DNA from: Archangium violaceum
GTDB lineage: Bacteria > Myxococcota > Myxococcia > Myxococcales > Myxococcaceae
Assembly (NCBI RefSeq): GCF_016887565.1
Contig: NZ_CP069396.1
Coordinates: 2,693,001-2,757,000 of the forward strand
Length of the DNA: 64,000 nucleotides
Direction of reading: 5' to 3'
In this document: positions 28,196 through 49,937 of the stretch, in pieces
Layout of the letters: every line of letters begins with the position of its first letter
Position numbering within the stretch: the stretch's first letter is position 1
Translations under genes and position numbers: made by a program
Notes under the pieces: model-generated
What the model saw: only the letters and a program-made list of their open reading frames with translations
What the model was told of the DNA's origin: nothing
The model's database searches: none

Positions 28196-29110
28196 TCAAT
28201 CGAGGAAACGACGTTCCCAGCGGCGCAGATCCTCCGGGGTGAAGTCGGTGCCGCCCTGGGATTGCTCATGGTAGAGCCAGGGCTCCAGCACACGCGCCAA
28301 CTCCCGGTAGGCTGGCAGTGTCTGGCCCTGCTCGGTGTCACCTGCCTCTGGCCAGGGGCCGAGGGTGACGACGGCCCGGTCACCTTGCATGTCCTGCACG
28401 GTGGTTCCCGGCGAGTGCAACCGGGAGCGCAGCCCGGACGTGCCCCCCAGCTCGCCGAGCACCGGTTGGCCCAGGAAGGTCATCCACGCGGAGCCTCGCA
28501 CCTGCGTGCCAAGGTGAAGCGAGTAATCACCTGGTTTGGGAATGTCCATGCCTGGGTAGCGGAAGCACTGCTGTCGAATCTCTCGTTCCACGCCCAGAAG
28601 CTCTGTGTCGCAGTTGAAGGAAAGACCCACGTAACCGGAGCAGAAAGGCAGGTGGCCCGCGACCTCGAATGCCAGCTCACGGAGCTTCTCCGGCCCATGT
28701 TCCTCGAGATACTCGGTGGGGAGCCAGAAAGACGCCGCGCACGTCATCCCCAGCCGATCAGCCCTGGATGGGTTGTCCAGCGGCCTCCCGTAGTATCGGA
28801 ATCGATACCGATCCTCCGCGTTCGATGCATCTCGCAAGTGGATGATGGGCCAGCGGCGCTTGTTCATCTTTTCCCGGATGTGCTCCCAGCCAGCATGATC
28901 CAGCTTCTGCCAGTCCCCCTCCTCATCCGCATAGAGGCCGAGCGCATCTGGTCCTACCGTACGCAGGTACGCCGTTAGCGCGTTCATTACTGCGCGAGAA
29001 AGCTCCGCATGAGGGCGGTGCATATAGAAATCGAGGCTCAGCCCCTCGCGTATCAGCAGGTACCCGCTGCGTGAGCAGGTGCGAATCCGCGGGTAATGGT
29101 GGCTTGCCAT
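28196..29110 (-). CDS. DUF3396 (type VI immunity-type) protein
   Basis: The 304-residue soluble protein has the features of the DUF3396 family: a FYMHRPHAELSRAVMNALTAYL block near the start, YADEEGDWQKLDHAGWE in the middle of the first third, and an aromatic C-terminal region ending LYHEQSQGGTDF. Proteins of this family are known or suspected immunity partners of polymorphic toxins in proteobacteria. No intact toxin gene lies beside it, so here it would be an orphan or a remnant of a toxin pair. GC content is visibly lower than in the neighbours. ATG 29110 overlaps the stop of a short open frame upstream (TGATG), which may be the tail of a lost toxin gene. Confidence 0.75.
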   Translation of the reverse strand: MASHHYPRIRTCSRSGYLLIREGLSLDFYMHRPHAELSRAVMNALTAYLRTVGPDALGLYADEEGDWQKLDHAGWEHIREKMNKRRWPIIHLRDASNAEDRYRFRYYGRPLDNPSRADRLGMTCAASFWLPTEYLEEHGPEKLRELAFEVAGHLPFCSGYVGLSFNCDTELLGVEREIRQQCFRYPGMDIPKPGDYSLHLGTQVRGSAWMTFLGQPVLGELGGTSGLRSRLHSPGTTVQDMQGDRAVVTLGPWPEAGDTEQGQTLPAYRELARVLEPWLYHEQSQGGTDFTPEDLRRWERRFLD

Positions 29111-29319
29111 CAAAAGACTCCCAAGCGGGGGACGATCATCCGTGGCTTTGGTCCCAGTGCTTCCTTGACGAAGGTCATCTTCCAGCAGCAGGGCGGACCT
29201 GTCCTCGAAAGGTGGACACTACGCCGAGCCGCTGGTGCCTTTCATACAGAGTCTCGGGCTCGCCGTGGCTCTCGCGCCGGGCCGGCCCCTATTGTCGGGC
29301 CATCGCCCGAGGCTCGCGC

Positions 29320-30516: not shown

Positions 30517-30543
30517 GCTGCGAGCGCCTGGCGTGGCTCAGGC
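30511..30543. terminator. bidirectional stem-loop over two convergent stops
   Basis: GCCTGAGC and GCTCAGGC form a perfect 8-bp inverted repeat with a 17-base loop. The repeat covers the stop codons of the P450 gene and of the convergent NtrC-type gene. Confidence 0.45.
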
Positions 30544-31899
30544 GCGGATGCGGGGAATGCCCAGCCGCTGGCGCTTCTCCCAGAGCGCCTTGCGGCTGAT
30601 GCCCAGCCGGCGCGCCAGCTCCGTCTCCCCCAGCTTGTCCTGGTGCTCCAACACGAAGCGGCGGAAGTACTCCTCCAGCGAGTCCGGTGAGGCGCTGCCC
30701 TCGATGCCGGGCTCTGGCAGCTCGTGCGTCTCGAAGGTGATGTTGCCACCGGGCTCCAGCGCGAGCAGCCCGGGCGTGACGAGCGGGCCATCGGCGAGGA
30801 TGACGGCGCGCTCGATGGCGTTCTCCAGCTCGCGCACGTTTCCGGGCCAGGGGTGCGTGGTGATCGTTGTGAGCGCCTCGGGCGAGAAGGTGGCGGGCGG
30901 CCGGTTGAGCCGCTGGCACGCCCTCTCCAACAGATGCTTCGCGAGCGCCGGGATGTCCTCGCCGCGCTCGCGCAGGGGCGGCAGCTTGATCTCCACCACG
31001 CGCAGCCGGAAGTAGAGATCCTGCCGGAATGCGCCCTCCTGGACGCGCTTGGGCAGGTCCCGGTGAGTGGCGGCGACGATGCGCACGTCCACCTTGCGCG
31101 AACGGGTGGCTCCCACGCGTCGCACCTCGCCGTCCTGCATCATCCGCAGCAGGCGGGCCTGGGCGGGGGCGGGCAGCTCGCCAATCTCGTCGAGGAAGAG
31201 CGTTCCTCCGTCCGCGCTCTCCACCAGGCCCGCGTGCGCGGTCTGCGCTCCGGTGAAGGCCCCCTTCTCGTGGCCGAACAGCTCGGACTCCAGCAGGCCC
31301 TCGGGGATGGCGGCGCAGTTGACGGCCACCAGCGGGCCATCGCGCCGGGGGCTCTGCGCGTGGAGCGCCCGCGCCACCAGCTCCTTGCCGGTACCGGACT
31401 CGCCCAGCACCAGCACCGTGGCAGGCGAGGCGGCCACCTTGCGGATTCGCTCGAAGGCGTCGCGCATGGCCAGGCAGTTGCCCACCATCCCGCTCACCGC
31501 GTACGTGCGCTCCACCTCGCGCTTCAGCGCCGCGTTCTGCCGGTTCAGCCGGCCCTCGCGCAGCACGCGCTCCACCTGCAGCAACAGCTCGTCGTGGTCG
31601 AAGGGCTTGGCGATGTAGTCCACCGCTCCCAGCTTCATGGCCTCCACCGCCGAGCGCACCGTGGCGTAGCTGGTCATGATGAGCACCGGCACTCCCGGCG
31701 CCTTGGCGATGACGTCCGTGCCCGCCGCGCCCGGCAGGCGCAGATCGCTCAGGATGAGGTCGAACGTGTCCAGCTCGTGGTTGGCCTCGGCTTCGTGCAC
31801 GGCGCCGGCCTCGGCCACGTCGTGCCCCGCCCGCGTCAACAGGCGGCGCAGCTCGGTGCGGATGACGGGCTCGTCCTCGATGACCAGGATGCGGCTCAT
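30538..31899 (-). CDS. NtrC-family sigma-54-dependent response regulator
   Basis: The 453-residue protein has all the parts of an NtrC/CbrB-type activator. The receiver domain (about 1-120) has the acidic pocket IEDEP and phospho-acceptor Asp52 in LSDLRLPG. The AAA+ domain has Walker A GESGTGKE, the sigma-54 contact loop GAFTGA and Walker B GTLFLDEIGE. A C-terminal helix-turn-helix (ETELARRLGISRKALWEKRQRLG) completes it. It should bind upstream enhancers, contact sigma-54 RNA polymerase and melt promoters using ATP after phosphorylation. It lies just past the end of the polyketide operon, whose promoter is of the sigma-54 type, making it the leading candidate activator. Confidence 0.95.
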   Translation of the reverse strand: MSRILVIEDEPVIRTELRRLLTRAGHDVAEAGAVHEAEANHELDTFDLILSDLRLPGAAGTDVIAKAPGVPVLIMTSYATVRSAVEAMKLGAVDYIAKPFDHDELLLQVERVLREGRLNRQNAALKREVERTYAVSGMVGNCLAMRDAFERIRKVAASPATVLVLGESGTGKELVARALHAQSPRRDGPLVAVNCAAIPEGLLESELFGHEKGAFTGAQTAHAGLVESADGGTLFLDEIGELPAPAQARLLRMMQDGEVRRVGATRSRKVDVRIVAATHRDLPKRVQEGAFRQDLYFRLRVVEIKLPPLRERGEDIPALAKHLLERACQRLNRPPATFSPEALTTITTHPWPGNVRELENAIERAVILADGPLVTPGLLALEPGGNITFETHELPEPGIEGSASPDSLEEYFRRFVLEHQDKLGETELARRLGISRKALWEKRQRLGIPRIRA

Positions 31900-37081: not shown

Positions 37082-37318
37082 TCAGGGCTTCGCCGACATG
37101 AGCGAGTAGAGGTCGCCGACGGTCTTCAGCTTCTTCTCGACCCCGTCGTCGATCTCGACATTGAAAGCCTTCTCCAGGGCGCTGCAGATCTCGACCATCT
37201 CGGTCGAGTCCACATCCAGATCGTCCTTGAGGGAGATCCTGGCGTTGATCTCCTCGATCTTCCGCTCGAGCAGGTTGGACAGGATGCTGTTGATCTTCGA
37301 TTCGACCTCTTGCGGCAT
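37082..37318 (-). CDS. acyl carrier protein of the type II PKS
   Basis: The 78-residue acidic protein has the four-helix ACP pattern. The phosphopantetheine-accepting serine is Ser38 in DLDVDSTEMVE, a variant of the DSL signature with Thr after Ser. It starts after a GAGGA ribosome site and lies 36 bases downstream of the chain-length factor. The ACP, KS-alpha and KS-beta form the minimal polyketide synthase, with the growing chain attached to this serine. The length fits both PKS and FAS carriers; its place in the operon makes it a PKS carrier. Confidence 0.92.
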   Translation of the reverse strand: MPQEVESKINSILSNLLERKIEEINARISLKDDLDVDSTEMVEICSALEKAFNVEIDDGVEKKLKTVGDLYSLMSAKP

Positions 37319-37354: not shown

Positions 37355-38602
37355 CTACCTGCCCGAGTCGCGGCGGATGACCAGGGACGCGTTCATGCCG
37401 CCGGAGCCGCGCGAGTTGATCAGGACGGCATCCAGCTGGTTGACGGCGGTGGCCTGGGTGACCACGGACAATCCCAGACTCGGATCCTGCTGCTTCAGGC
37501 CGACCGTGGGCGGGAGCTGGCGGTGCTCGAGGGCCAACGCGCCCCAGGCCGTGTCCAGCGCCCCGGCCGCCCCATACAGGTGGCCGGTCATGGACTTGGG
37601 TGCAGTCACGGGCAGGCGGTGGCGGAGGTCTCCGAACACCTTCTGGATGGCGGTGGCCTCCTGCTGGTCTCCTTCCCGGGTGGCGAGCCCGTCCGCCAGC
37701 AACAGGTGGATGTCCCTGGGCTCGAGCCCGGCATCCTTCAAGGCGCCGGACATGGCGCGCGACAGGCCTCCCTCCTCGGGAGGGAGCGTGGCCGGGTGGC
37801 ACGCGTCGCTCGACAGGCCGAAGCCGTCGATCTCCGCGTAGACATGGGCACCGCGCCGCAGGGCGTGCTCCCGCTCCTCGAGCAGCAGGAAGGTGGCGCC
37901 CTCACCCGGCAGCAGGCCCTGCCGCGACACGTCGAACGGGCGGTAGGCCCGGGGCGCGGTGGCGTCCTGACCCCCGGCGATCACTCCTTCCGTCACGCAG
38001 GCCAGGTAGGCGAAGGGCGTGAGGGGGGCTTCCGCTCCACCCGCGAGGATGATGTCCGCGGAGCCCTGGGCGATCGTGCGCGCCGCATAGCCGATGCTCA
38101 CCAGGCCGCTGGCGCGGTCACACACCAGCGTCTTGCTGTGGCCCCGGAGCTCGAACAGGATGGAGATCTGCCCCTGCGGAGCGGCGGGGAACCATGCTGT
38201 CGCCTGGAAGGGGCTGAGCTCCTTGTAGCCCAGGGTGTGAAGCTTGCGCAGCTCCCGGTCGGTGAAATCCCAGCCACCGAGGCAGTTGCCCACGAAGACA
38301 CCGAAGCGCTCGCGGTCGACCTTCTGCAGGTCGACCGAGCCATCCTCCAGCGCGAGCTTCGACGCGGCCACCGAATACTGGGTGTACGGGTCGAGCTTGC
38401 GTGCCAACCGCATGGGCATGAAGTCGGAGGGGCTGAAGGCCTCCAGCGCGCCTCCTTCCCAGCCGGAGCGCTCCGCCAGCGGGTCGCCGGTGAGGGGGCG
38501 GATGGACTGCTTCCCAGAGAGGGTACTCGCCCAGGCGTTGCGTTTGCCGATACCGCCAGGGGTGATCATTCCAAGGCCAGTGATGACGACGCGGCGGCTC
38601 AT
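37355..38602 (-). CDS. KS-beta / chain-length factor of the type II PKS
   Basis: The 415-residue ketosynthase-like protein has lost two of three catalytic residues. Aligned with the KS-alpha, the active-site Cys position is Arg163 (in CDRASGLVSIG), and the first catalytic His is replaced by Asp304 (in LADGLATREGD). The second His remains (KSMTGHLYG). This is the expected state of a chain-length factor, the inactive partner that pairs with KS-alpha and sets the number of extensions; classical members have Gln at the Cys position, so Arg is unusual. Its start overlaps the KS-alpha stop by four bases (ATGA), which secures equal dosage. Confidence 0.93.
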   Translation of the reverse strand: MSRRVVITGLGMITPGGIGKRNAWASTLSGKQSIRPLTGDPLAERSGWEGGALEAFSPSDFMPMRLARKLDPYTQYSVAASKLALEDGSVDLQKVDRERFGVFVGNCLGGWDFTDRELRKLHTLGYKELSPFQATAWFPAAPQGQISILFELRGHSKTLVCDRASGLVSIGYAARTIAQGSADIILAGGAEAPLTPFAYLACVTEGVIAGGQDATAPRAYRPFDVSRQGLLPGEGATFLLLEEREHALRRGAHVYAEIDGFGLSSDACHPATLPPEEGGLSRAMSGALKDAGLEPRDIHLLLADGLATREGDQQEATAIQKVFGDLRHRLPVTAPKSMTGHLYGAAGALDTAWGALALEHRQLPPTVGLKQQDPSLGLSVVTQATAVNQLDAVLINSRGSGGMNASLVIRRDSGR

Positions 38603-39894
38603 CGCAGACCTCCAACGAAATCAGGGTTCGAGAAGACGACGGCGCTGTGGATGCCAGAGAAACCGCTCGCCTCCTTGAGGACGACATCGAGCTTCTGCTG
38701 GATGCTCTTGTTGGGCACGTAGTGCAGGTCGCAGGCCGGGTCGGGCGTCTCGTAGTTGATCGTCGGAGGGAGCTTCCCGGTGTGCAGGGCGAGCAGGGCC
38801 GAGATGCTCTCGAGGACGTTGGCGGCGGCCAGGGGGTGGCCCACCATGGACTTCAGCGAGCTGACGTGGATTTCATAGGCGTGCTTGCCGAGCACCTCCT
38901 TGAGCGCCGTCGTCTCGTTGACGTCGTTCTGCCGGGTGGAGCTGCCGTGCGCGGAGACGTAGCTGATCTCCTGGGGGCGGACGCGGGCGTCCTCGAGGGC
39001 CGCGCGCAGGGCCCGCGCCAGGTCGTGACCGTCCGGCGGCAGGTCCGTCATGTGGAAGGCGTTGTTGCAGGAGCCGAACCCTCGCACCTCGGCGTAGATG
39101 GGGGCGTTGCGCCGCAGGGCGTGCTGGCGCTCCTCGAGGATGAGGATGCCGGCACCCTCGCCGAGCACGAAGCCGTCGCGGTCGGCATCGAAGGGACGCG
39201 ACGCCTGGTGCGGAGCGGCGTTGCGCTTGCTGGAGAGCGCGCCGACGACGTCGAAAGCTCCCATGGCGATGGGGGTGATGGGCGCCTCGGAGGCACCGCA
39301 GATCATCACGTCCGCCTCGTTCGAGCGGATGCGGTCCAGGGAGAACCCGATGGCATCCAACCCCGCGGTGCAGCCGGTGCTCAGGGTGAAGCAGGGCCCG
39401 AATGCCTTGTACTCGGTGGCGAGCTCCGCCGAGGCCACGTTGAAGGTGGCGCCCTGGTAGAGCCAGCGCTGTGCCCACGCTCCGTTCAGGGGCGCGGTGC
39501 CCCCCTCGGTGAGCACCAGGAACTCCTCCTCCATGAAGCGGGTGCCGCAGATGGCGTTGGCCACGCACACGCCCAGCCGCTCGTGGTCCAGCTTCTGGAA
39601 GTCGATCTTCGAGTCCCCCGTGGCCATGCGCGCCGCCGCCAGGGCGAACTGGGCATAGCGGTCCAGCCGGCGGATCTGCTCCTCCTTCAGCCCGAGATCC
39701 CGCGGCCGGAAGTCCTTCACCAGTCCGGCGATCCTGGACCTCAGTCCATCGAGCGGGAACCGGTCCACCTCGAAGATGCCGGACCTTCCCTCCAGGGTGT
39801 TGCTCCAGAAATCGTTCAGGCCGATCCCGTTCGGGGCGATGATGCCCATCCCGGTAACGACGACACGTCGCTCTTTGTTGTTATGTGTTTTCAC
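38599..39894 (-). CDS. KS-alpha, catalytic ketosynthase of the type II PKS
   Basis: The 431-residue enzyme has the catalytic triad Cys175 (LSTGCTAGLDAIG), His316 (SAHGSSTRQND) and His353 (SMVGHPLAAAN). It condenses malonyl-ACP units into the poly-beta-ketone chain as a heterodimer with the adjacent KS-beta. The GTG start at 39894 was picked because it precedes the first conserved block RRVVVTGMGI and matches the end of the ketoreductase gene 26 bases upstream. It is the best marker for the cluster: the CTAGLDAIG and GEGAG blocks place it with type II PKS and related KS enzymes rather than FabF. Confidence 0.94.
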   Translation of the reverse strand: MKTHNNKERRVVVTGMGIIAPNGIGLNDFWSNTLEGRSGIFEVDRFPLDGLRSRIAGLVKDFRPRDLGLKEEQIRRLDRYAQFALAAARMATGDSKIDFQKLDHERLGVCVANAICGTRFMEEEFLVLTEGGTAPLNGAWAQRWLYQGATFNVASAELATEYKAFGPCFTLSTGCTAGLDAIGFSLDRIRSNEADVMICGASEAPITPIAMGAFDVVGALSSKRNAAPHQASRPFDADRDGFVLGEGAGILILEERQHALRRNAPIYAEVRGFGSCNNAFHMTDLPPDGHDLARALRAALEDARVRPQEISYVSAHGSSTRQNDVNETTALKEVLGKHAYEIHVSSLKSMVGHPLAAANVLESISALLALHTGKLPPTINYETPDPACDLHYVPNKSIQQKLDVVLKEASGFSGIHSAVVFSNPDFVGGLR

Positions 39895-44834: not shown

Positions 44835-45032
44835 TCACTGTCCCTTGTGCGTGCCGTCGCTCTCGAGGCCGGCGGCCGGCGGGACCTGCTGTTTCAGATC
44901 ATTGATGACGAAATCGAGGATCTCGTTGGCGACAGCGATGATCTGTTGCGCTGTGTAGCCATTGTCCCTCAATTGCAGGATGAATCCTCGGACGGTGCTC
45001 TCGGAGTTGTGAGACTTTGCCATGGCCAGCAT
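44835..45032 (-). CDS. 65-residue protein of unknown function, first gene of the PKS operon
   Basis: A short acidic/polar protein (MLAMAKSHNSESTVRGFI...) with a helical middle (YTAQQIIAVANEILDFVINDL). It has no signal or membrane segment. There are two ATGs: 45032 and 45023. It is the first coding region after the sigma-54 promoter and the MarR-type operator, so its expression is under direct control. The role is unknown; a helper for folding or assembly of the PKS, or a leader-type regulator, is possible. It ends ten bases before the membrane protein gene. Confidence 0.6.
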   Translation of the reverse strand: MLAMAKSHNSESTVRGFILQLRDNGYTAQQIIAVANEILDFVINDLKQQVPPAAGLESDGTHKGQ

Positions 45033-45163: not shown

Positions 45164-45177
45164 ATTGTGCAGACAAT
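45164..45177. promoter_or_regulatory. MarR-type operator before the PKS operon
   Basis: ATTGTGCAGACAAT is an inverted repeat (ATTGT-GCAG-ACAAT). It lies about 21-34 bases after the transcription start predicted from the sigma-54 site, where a bound repressor could block elongation. The same motif, TTGTGCGGACAA, recurs at 46253-46264 next to the MarR gene, and a looser copy is at 46206-46217. Confidence 0.65.
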
Positions 45178-45207
45178 CATACCGCTTGGCAATGCTGTTT
45201 TCTTTTG

Positions 45208-45223
45208 TGCAACGCGGGTGCCA
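45208..45223 (-). promoter_or_regulatory. sigma-54 (-24/-12) promoter of the PKS operon
   Basis: On the minus strand the sequence reads TGGCACCCGCGTTGCA. This matches the sigma-54 consensus TGGCAC-N5-TTGCA at every conserved position, with GG and GC separated by ten bases. Transcription should start near 45197, giving a leader of about 165 bases before the first gene at 45032. Promoters of this class need an NtrC-type activator, and one is encoded at 30538-31899. Confidence 0.8.
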
Positions 45224-45280
45224 GCTTCGGGAGATCCTCAAGTCGCCTGGAATGCTAGGAGTGGGAGGAGTTGGGGTGTG

Positions 45281-45341
45281 GCGTCTCCGCGCAGATGTTT
45301 CGTTTCGCGGTTGGAGACCAGCAAAATTTGCGTCTCTCCGC
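45281..45341. promoter_or_regulatory. repeats placed like upstream activator sites
   Basis: GCGTCTCCGC (45281-45290) recurs as GCGTCTCTCCGC (45330-45341), and GCGGTTGGAGAC (45307-45318) is a partial inverted copy. They lie roughly 85-145 bases upstream of the predicted sigma-54 start, where enhancer-binding proteins usually bind. Confidence 0.4.
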
Positions 45342-45478
45342 TTTGGGAGTCTTTGATTTGAGAGTCAATCCCGGGTGATGGTGCACGGCTGTCAGGATTC
45401 AGCCGGCGGCGGCTATCAGTCAGGATTTGAGGGGGAGCTCACGCCCGGGCAGCGGGCGGAGGGGTGTTCCGTCTTCCA

Positions 45479-45805
45479 TCAACCGGCGCGGTGTCGGAGG
45501 ATTGCCTCGGCGATGCGCGTGCGCTCTTCGGGCGTCAGGGCGCGGGTCTTCTCCACCATGGGCTTCATCGCCTCGAAACCTTCCGGGGAGACCCGCGGAG
45601 CGCTCTTCCCCTCGAGGAACTGGACGAGCTCTTCCCGCGAGGAGTAGTGCGTCGAGATGAGGCGGAGGGAGGGGCCCAGTCCCTCGGTGGACGGCGTGTG
45701 GCACGAGGAACATCCATGTTTCGCGAGCACGGTGTCCGGTGCCTCGCATCCCACGAGGAGCCAGGCGGCGAGGAGTGCCGTCGGCAGCGTGGCGGTGTCC
45801 TTCAT
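45479..45805 (-). CDS. small lipoprotein cytochrome c
   Basis: The 108-residue protein has a lipoprotein signal (LLAAWLLVGCEAP). A single heme-binding motif CSSCH follows directly after (KHGCSSCHTP), and MKPMVEKTRALT could supply the methionine ligand. It is a small mono-heme electron carrier anchored in the periplasm. Its start overlaps the stop of the DoxX-type gene by four bases (ATGA), so they are co-translated. The pair is transcribed from the region with two MarR-type operators. Confidence 0.83.
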   Translation of the reverse strand: MKDTATLPTALLAAWLLVGCEAPDTVLAKHGCSSCHTPSTEGLGPSLRLISTHYSSREELVQFLEGKSAPRVSPEGFEAMKPMVEKTRALTPEERTRIAEAILRHRAG

Positions 45806-46182
45806 GCGGCCACCATCAGCGCCCAGCGCTGCCGGTAACGCCAGAGCAGGAACAGCTCGCAGGAGACGAGGAAGAGGGCCATGACCATTCCCGGCCCCGT
45901 CTTCGCGAGCAGCAGCAGGTAGAGCGCGATGTTGGTGATCACCGGGGCCAGGATGGCCACGCTGATGGGAATGTACCGTCCGGACAACAGCAGGGCTCCC
46001 CCCATGACCTCGATGACTCCCAGGAGCGGCCACATGTATCCGCTGGTCATCAGGGCCGCGATGAACGTGGCGGCCTCTGGCGGCACGGGGGGGGTTGGCA
46101 TGAACGGGTAGAACTTGCTCGCTCCGAAGAGCACGAATACCGCCCCCATCAGCCACCGGACCACGACTTCCAATCGCTGCAT
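45802..46182 (-). CDS. DoxX-like membrane protein
   Basis: The 126-residue protein has four membrane helices. VVRWLMGAVFVLFGASKFYPF, then GYMWPLLGVIEVMGGALLL and NIALYLLLLAKTGPG match the DoxX/DoxD-like group. These proteins are linked to quinone-dependent oxidation and redox defence. ATG 46182 follows AAGGGGG; a longer reading frame is unlikely. It is the first gene after the divergent MarR promoter. Regulation by MarR, together with the polyketide operon, would make sense if the product is a quinone. Confidence 0.75.
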   Translation of the reverse strand: MQRLEVVVRWLMGAVFVLFGASKFYPFMPTPPVPPEAATFIAALMTSGYMWPLLGVIEVMGGALLLSGRYIPISVAILAPVITNIALYLLLLAKTGPGMVMALFLVSCELFLLWRYRQRWALMVAA

Positions 46183-46205
46183 GTCGACCCCCTTACATTG
46201 TATTG

Positions 46206-46217
46206 TTGCTCGGACAA
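46206..46217. promoter_or_regulatory. MarR-type operator, looser copy
   Basis: TTGCTCGGACAA matches 9 of 12 positions of the TTGTGCGGACAA copy downstream. Extended, it forms GTTG-N6-CAAC. It lies 24 bases before the DoxX start on the minus strand, so it could repress that operon. Confidence 0.45.
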
Positions 46218-46252
46218 CTATACGGAGAGGGGAGGGGAGGGGCAAGATTCAA

Positions 46253-46264
46253 TTGTGCGGACAA
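46253..46264. promoter_or_regulatory. MarR-type operator before the MarR gene
   Basis: TTGTGCGGACAA differs by one base from the core TTGTGCAGACAA found before the PKS operon. It lies 26 bases upstream of the preferred MarR start, suitable for autorepression. Confidence 0.6.
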
Positions 46265-46290
46265 GTGTTTCTGGATAGATGGAGCCGGTC

Positions 46291-46803
46291 ATGTGGCACG
46301 ACAAGGAGAATCGGCGACCCCCTCGATTGGCGCCACCGGCGCGACCGGGCATCATCGATGCGGAGGACGCCGTGGAACTGAACGACCAGCTTGGATACAA
46401 CCTCTATCGCGCAGCGCTCTTGTTCCGTCGAGAGCTCATCCGAGCTTTGAGGGAGCACGACCTCACGCCCGAGCAGTGGCAGACCCTTGCATCCCTCTGG
46501 GCGCACGGCCCGCTGTCTCCCTCGGAGATCGCTCGCGTGACCCTGCAGGATCTCCCCTCCATCTCCCGGATGCTCTCCCGCATGGAGAAGCGAGGGTGGG
46601 TTGGCAGGGTGGAGGATCCGAAGGACGGGCGTTCGTTCCGTGTGGAGCTCACACGGGAGGGGAGCCATCTGCAGACCATCCTGCCTCCCCTCATCTTCGA
46701 GCACTTCGAGGAGGTGCTCGACGGATTCCCCGAGACGCGTCGCCGGAAGCTCCTGGAGCTCCTCCGCGAGCTCCGGCAGGTGCTGGGAGATCCAACCCCC
46801 TGA
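46291..46803 (+). CDS. MarR-family transcriptional regulator
   Basis: The 170-residue protein has the MarR winged-helix domain: LTPEQWQTLASLWAHGPLSPSEIARVTLQDLPSISRMLSR holds the recognition helix, and VEDPKDGRSFRVELT is the wing with the conserved DxRS-x-x-x-x-L-T pattern. ATG 46291 follows GGAG; ATG 46279 adds four residues. MarR proteins usually lose DNA binding when they bind phenolic or quinone ligands or are oxidised. Two matching operators flank its start and a third lies before the polyketide operon, so I infer that it represses both, possibly with the pathway product as inducer. Confidence 0.85.
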   Translation: MWHDKENRRPPRLAPPARPGIIDAEDAVELNDQLGYNLYRAALLFRRELIRALREHDLTPEQWQTLASLWAHGPLSPSEIARVTLQDLPSISRMLSRMEKRGWVGRVEDPKDGRSFRVELTREGSHLQTILPPLIFEHFEEVLDGFPETRRRKLLELLRELRQVLGDPTP

Positions 46804-46807
46804 GCCT

Positions 46808-49772
<2,965 letters not shown>

Positions 49773-49783
<11 letters not shown>

Positions 49784-49937
49784 GGCCGCTCCGGCGCGCG
49801 GCCCACGCTCCGAGTGCGATGACACCGAGCCACACGGCGAAGGGCTGGTACCAGGGCGCGCCCTCGCGCAGCCACAACTGGCGCAGCGGCGAGCCGAAGA
49901 GGAGCGCAGCCACGGTGAACACGAACAGCGAGAGCAT
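49773..49937 (-). CDS. small membrane protein overlapping the CbrA-like gene
   Basis: A 54-residue protein with two hydrophobic segments (MLSLFVFTVAALLFG and YQPFAVWLGVIALGAWA) and a short basic tail. Its stop lies 11 bases inside the kinase gene, so its translation is probably coupled to the kinase. A short overlapping gene, cbrX, occupies the same place in Pseudomonas. GGGGGGAC lies ten bases before ATG 49937; a start at 49973 is also in frame. The function is unknown, but a regulator of kinase amount is likely. Confidence 0.55.

Follow-up and report, generated by a model that had tools for sequence, protein, structure and literature searches.

A MarR-type regulator probably shared by three promoter regions of a type II polyketide locus in Archangium violaceum

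MhqR is a quinone-responsive repressor of the MarR type, known from Staphylococcus aureus and Bacillus subtilis, that performs its sensing without cysteine (PMC6798810, PMC12893000). In S. aureus its operator spans positions -6 to +12 of mhqRED (PMC6798810), and in B. subtilis an inverted-repeat operator in the start region is common to several promoters. Type II polyketide synthase (PKS) clusters are rare in Myxococcota (PMC13213394). In its native host the aggregicyclin (acy) cluster was cryptic, and activation was achieved by exchanging promoters; in a heterologous host, production was independent of added vanillate, and the authors suggested that pathway products autoinduce the vanillate repressor system (PMC13213394). 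This case is a precedent, in another system, for relief of repression by an aromatic polyketide. A literature search, in which the coverage of subscription papers was poor, found neither a MarR-controlled type II PKS in myxobacteria nor the operator sequence described below.

The DNA analyzed here (the window) is a 64,000-nucleotide stretch of the Archangium violaceum genome (NZ_CP069396.1, positions 2,693,001 to 2,757,000), in which a marR gene, a divergent doxX-cytochrome c pair and a type II PKS operon each carry a copy of one inverted repeat. The likeness to MhqR lies in a MarR-family protein and a putative inverted-repeat operator near the start region of several promoters. However, the MhqR operator, TATCTCGAA-aTCGAaATA (PMC6798810), differs from the window motif, and MhqR controls detoxification enzymes, whereas the MarR of the window lies beside a biosynthetic cluster. 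Like acy, this cluster has a KS-alpha, a chain-length factor, a carrier protein and cyclases; unlike the window locus, the acy system is described in the main text of its paper with no MarR or DoxX named (PMC13213394).

All of the components that define a type II PKS were found on the minus strand: a KS-alpha (about 38599-39876; Pfam ketosynthase) with its cysteine in the sequence GCTAG, a KS-beta or chain-length factor (37355-38602; Pfam ketosynthase) that lacks the active-site cysteine, and a discrete acyl carrier protein of 78 residues (37082..37318) with the phosphopantetheine motif DVDSTEM in the frame translation. The operon also encodes cyclases, ketoreductase-like proteins, an amidotransferase and an FAD oxidoreductase. 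Its first member is a small ORF of 65 residues (44835..45032, minus strand). In a sister species, G045, about 139 extra bases (C2, about 716259-716397) lie inside the N-terminal coding part of this ORF, so that either its start is elsewhere or the gene is not strongly constrained. An NtrC-type response regulator is encoded within the cluster (30538..31899, minus strand), with receiver and sigma-54 AAA+ domains (Pfam) and a Fis-like helix-turn-helix in its translation. At the distal end, genes for a TsiV-type (type VI immunity) protein (28196-29113, minus strand) and a cytochrome P450 (29071-30516, plus strand) adjoin. On the other side of the PKS operon, doxX (45802..46182, minus strand) encodes a DoxX-family membrane protein (Pfam DoxX, 2.2e-6, above the curated cut-off) and overlaps by four bases the gene of a c-type cytochrome (45479..45805, minus strand; Pfam Cytochrom_C, 7.7e-6), a probable lipoprotein whose translation contains the lipobox LVGC and the haem motif CSSCH.

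The repeat has the 12-bp consensus TTGTSC-GSACAA and is present as TTGTGCAGACAA (45165..45176), TTGCTCGGACAA (46206..46217) and TTGTGCGGACAA (46253..46264), all three being located where a first-pass annotation of this DNA had reported copies of one inverted repeat. The site of Escherichia coli MarR, TTGCC-N2-GGCAA, has the same 12-bp layout. The first copy is in the PKS operon leader. Upstream of it on the minus strand is an exact sigma-54 -24/-12 element, TGGCACCCGCGTTGCA (45208..45223; TGGCAC-N5-TTGCA), which is the only match in the 64 kb even when one mismatch is allowed. The usual spacing predicts a start at about 45197, and the putative operator therefore falls at about +22 to +33, in agreement with the earlier estimate of 20-35 bases past a sigma-54 start. 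A weak sigma-70-like promoter (TTGCCA-17-CACAAT, minus strand) is also present, and its -10 is overlapped by the same operator. The second copy, with two off-consensus positions, lies directly 3' of the -10 hexamer of doxX (promoter TTGCCC-17-TATAGT, minus strand) and begins at the last base of this hexamer, a position resembling that of the S. aureus MhqR operator (-6 to +12; PMC6798810). The third copy is 26 bp 5' of the likely marR start codon, in a promoter without clear hexamers. MarR dimers bind palindromic operators, usually close to their own promoter; here a conserved palindrome stands at the marR promoter and at two others.

Counts of the motif give a mixed picture. The form TTGNNCRGACAA (TTGNNC[AG]GACAA) matches three times across the window, where 0.09 matches are expected, and a count of three was not reached in any of 100 shuffles; this pattern was derived from the sites themselves and fitted after the fact. 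When two mismatches are allowed the motif is not enriched (five observed versus 4.5 expected), and since such window-only statistics are at chance level, comparison between genomes was needed. In a genome scan of the kind proposed in the first-pass annotation, exact TTGTGCRGACAA occurs twice in the 13.2-Mb single-contig genome, both copies being in this locus (window positions 45165 and 46253), but base composition alone predicts about 0.9 copies per genome, so that the count is no excess. What stands out is not the number but that both copies lie within 1.1 kb, at promoter regions. Sites with one mismatch are about as frequent as those of a reversed control pattern (26 versus 19 in the window genome and 24 versus 26 in G045); those elsewhere are mostly inside likely genes, the four common to G045 are all in ORFs, and no intergenic one-mismatch site common to both genomes was found beyond the three. 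A wider regulon was rejected on these grounds. When the motif was extended to TTGTSCGGACAANYATR, matches were confined to G045, where two of the three sites fitted. Intergenic DNA of L005, near position 1501 (genome position 619514), has the half-sites arranged inside out, as GCGGACAATTTGTCCGC; the G045 matches include no counterpart.

The comparison with G045 carries most of the argument. Among 145 genomes of the order searched for close MarR relatives, only this one, from the same genus, contained such a protein (94% identity), and the conservation described here consequently rests on one species pair. G045 has the whole locus, and across its 12.6 Mb TTGTSCGGACAA is present at three positions only: the orthologous PKS leader, doxX and marR promoters. 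Window TTGTGCAGACAA at 45165 is replaced by TTGTGCGGACAA, which is closer to the consensus; the imperfect TTGCTCGGACAA at 46206 becomes a perfect TTGTGCGGACAA; and TTGTGCGGACAA at 46253 becomes the perfect palindrome TTGTCCGGACAA. Most of the locus is 93-95% identical between the two species, and intergenic identity outside the sites is approximately 78-79% on the PKS side and 76% between doxX and marR. The sigma-54 element is also kept, within a well conserved block. Under a simple neutral model, the probability that all three sites would become exact matches at 15-30% divergence is, as a rough figure, 1e-6 to 1e-8. Because these three sites, and no others, are kept in the sister species, one repressor probably controls all three units.

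The regulator itself (46291..46803, plus strand) is firmly placed in the MarR winged-helix family by its sequence, passing the Pfam cut-offs for MarR_2 (57.2 bits against 27; 1.8e-15) and MarR (55.8 bits against 24.6; 4.3e-15). Its ORF spans 46279-46803; the ATG at 46291 is a more likely start than 46279, because in G045 a stop codon replaces the upstream extension. The nearest curated NCBIfam model is HpaR, a name that refers to an aromatic-acid pathway, with 62.9 bits (2.6e-17) against a cut-off of 121.2; as this score is half of the cut-off, identity with HpaR was rejected. The E. coli-type models are far below their cut-offs (MarR, 43 of 240 bits; MprA, 27.8 of 157 bits), and no MhqR model is among the NCBIfam matches. 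The nearest solved sequence is the MarR of PDB entries 7KFO/7KKI (1.5e-15), and a single-sequence fold (pLDDT 47) was too poor to use.

More distant relatives of the protein provide a second line of comparison. For three Syntrophaceae proteins with 34-35% identity to the window MarR, the marR start is preceded at a distance of about 45 bp by TTGTCGTGACAA, which has the same half-sites, directly follows a -10-like sequence and is the sole TTGTN4ACAA in each 13-16 kb locus. As the three are closely akin, TTGTCGTGACAA counts as one observation. No TTGTN4ACAA was found upstream of the MarR relatives in G019 and G160, so that the half-site match is limited to the Syntrophaceae group. In an alignment, R93 and D87 of the recognition-helix region are kept across the proteins of the window, G045, Syntrophaceae and G160. 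The presence of the same half-sites at the promoters of Syntrophaceae homologues further supports the reading of one repressor. On comparative grounds, namely the three sites kept in G045 and the half-sites of distant homologues, the earlier proposal of one repressor for the marR, doxX and PKS units is strongly supported, and a single MarR is considered, from sequence comparison, very likely to act at all three sites.

The nature of the ligand is a separate question. Neither the window protein nor its G045 ortholog contains a cysteine. A thiol-based sensor of the OhrR, QsrR or YodB type, with covalent sensing of quinones, is ruled out by this absence, whereas an aromatic compound might be bound non-covalently, as in MhqR. 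It may be speculated, along the lines of the first-pass annotation, that an aromatic polyketide or an intermediate of its synthesis is bound in this manner, a suggestion to be taken as tentative. The same MarR could occupy the three sites but have a ligand unrelated to the polyketide, such as a phenol from the environment or a quinone of the respiratory chain, to which the PKS operon would be part of the response; this is a serious possibility, at somewhat below even likelihood, and is compatible with control by one repressor. In the Syntrophaceae, marR is followed by an emrA-like gene and in L024 also by an emrB-like gene (named from translations), and these efflux genes suggest an external toxic ligand, as DoxX and cytochrome c suggest membrane redox chemistry; the confinement of the motif to this locus, however, fits a pathway-specific signal. 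These operons, marR-emrA(-emrB)-like in layout and each with one TTGTCGTGACAA site, lie at 9974-11552 in L022 and 5700-8836 in L024. In this the relatives resemble EmrR/MprA, which belongs to the same family. The targets of E. coli MarR and EmrR/MprA, unlike those proposed here, are efflux and stress genes.

Control of a neighbor in a divergent arrangement is the commonest MarR layout, and the repeat could accordingly be an operator of the marR-doxX region only, with the copy at 45165 coincidental or defunct. Sigma-54 and its activator would then be the only control on the PKS operon, and the sigma-54 promoter plus the NtrC-type gene of the cluster could be enough for this. Such a reading is improbable: the site is not only kept in G045 amid DNA of 78% identity but is nearer to the consensus there, and neither genome has an exact copy of the motif outside this locus. 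Related type II PKS clusters in two more distant genomes, G114 and G097 (63-67% identity for KS and 72-74% for the PF04199 cyclase), were also compared; the stretches read match neither MarR nor doxX and contain neither the motif, at up to one mismatch, nor a sigma-54 element of the tested pattern. Inverted repeats of 12-16 bp are used by other regulator families too, and the binding protein cannot be named from sequence alone, but a different regulator encoded elsewhere (for example of the TetR or GntR type), with marR merely one of its targets, is highly improbable, as the motif is missing both from the remainder of the genome and from related PKS clusters that lack this MarR, and as the promoters of distant MarR homologues contain these half-sites too.

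If a single MarR acts at all three sites, TTGTSC-GSACAA would be the operator of the adjacent regulator. A MarR dimer at 46253 would limit expression of its own gene, and at 46206 it would repress the doxX-cytochrome c pair by covering its -10 and start region. At 45165, it would block either the leader downstream of the sigma-54 PKS promoter or the overlapping weak sigma-70-like promoter. Binding of a small ligand would free the DNA of MarR and so switch on the membrane redox pair together with the biosynthetic genes. A sigma-54 site combined with an operator at about +22 to +33 implies that PKS expression would need both the presence of an activator and the release of the repressor. The NtrC-type regulator is, from its domains, a candidate activator of this promoter. 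A gene for a histidine kinase of 1005 residues, with a PAS domain and a hydrophobic N-terminal half, ends beside marR (46808-49825, minus strand), and this kinase could be the partner of the NtrC-type regulator of the cluster. The most complete version of the scheme, in which a product-sensing MarR gates the sigma-54 promoter just past its start, an aromatic polyketide cluster of a Gram-negative bacterium depends both on the NtrC-type activator and on its own product or intermediate releasing MarR, and the same signal turns on a DoxX-cytochrome c pair that protects against or oxidizes the product, is put forward as unlikely in its entirety.

If one local repressor does shut the cluster, deletion of marR or mutation of the site at 45165 would be a direct way of switching it on and identifying its product. 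The locus would then represent a compact case in which sigma-54 activation is combined with MarR repression, and the pairing of the sigma-54 element with a MarR operator is the part most worth attention.
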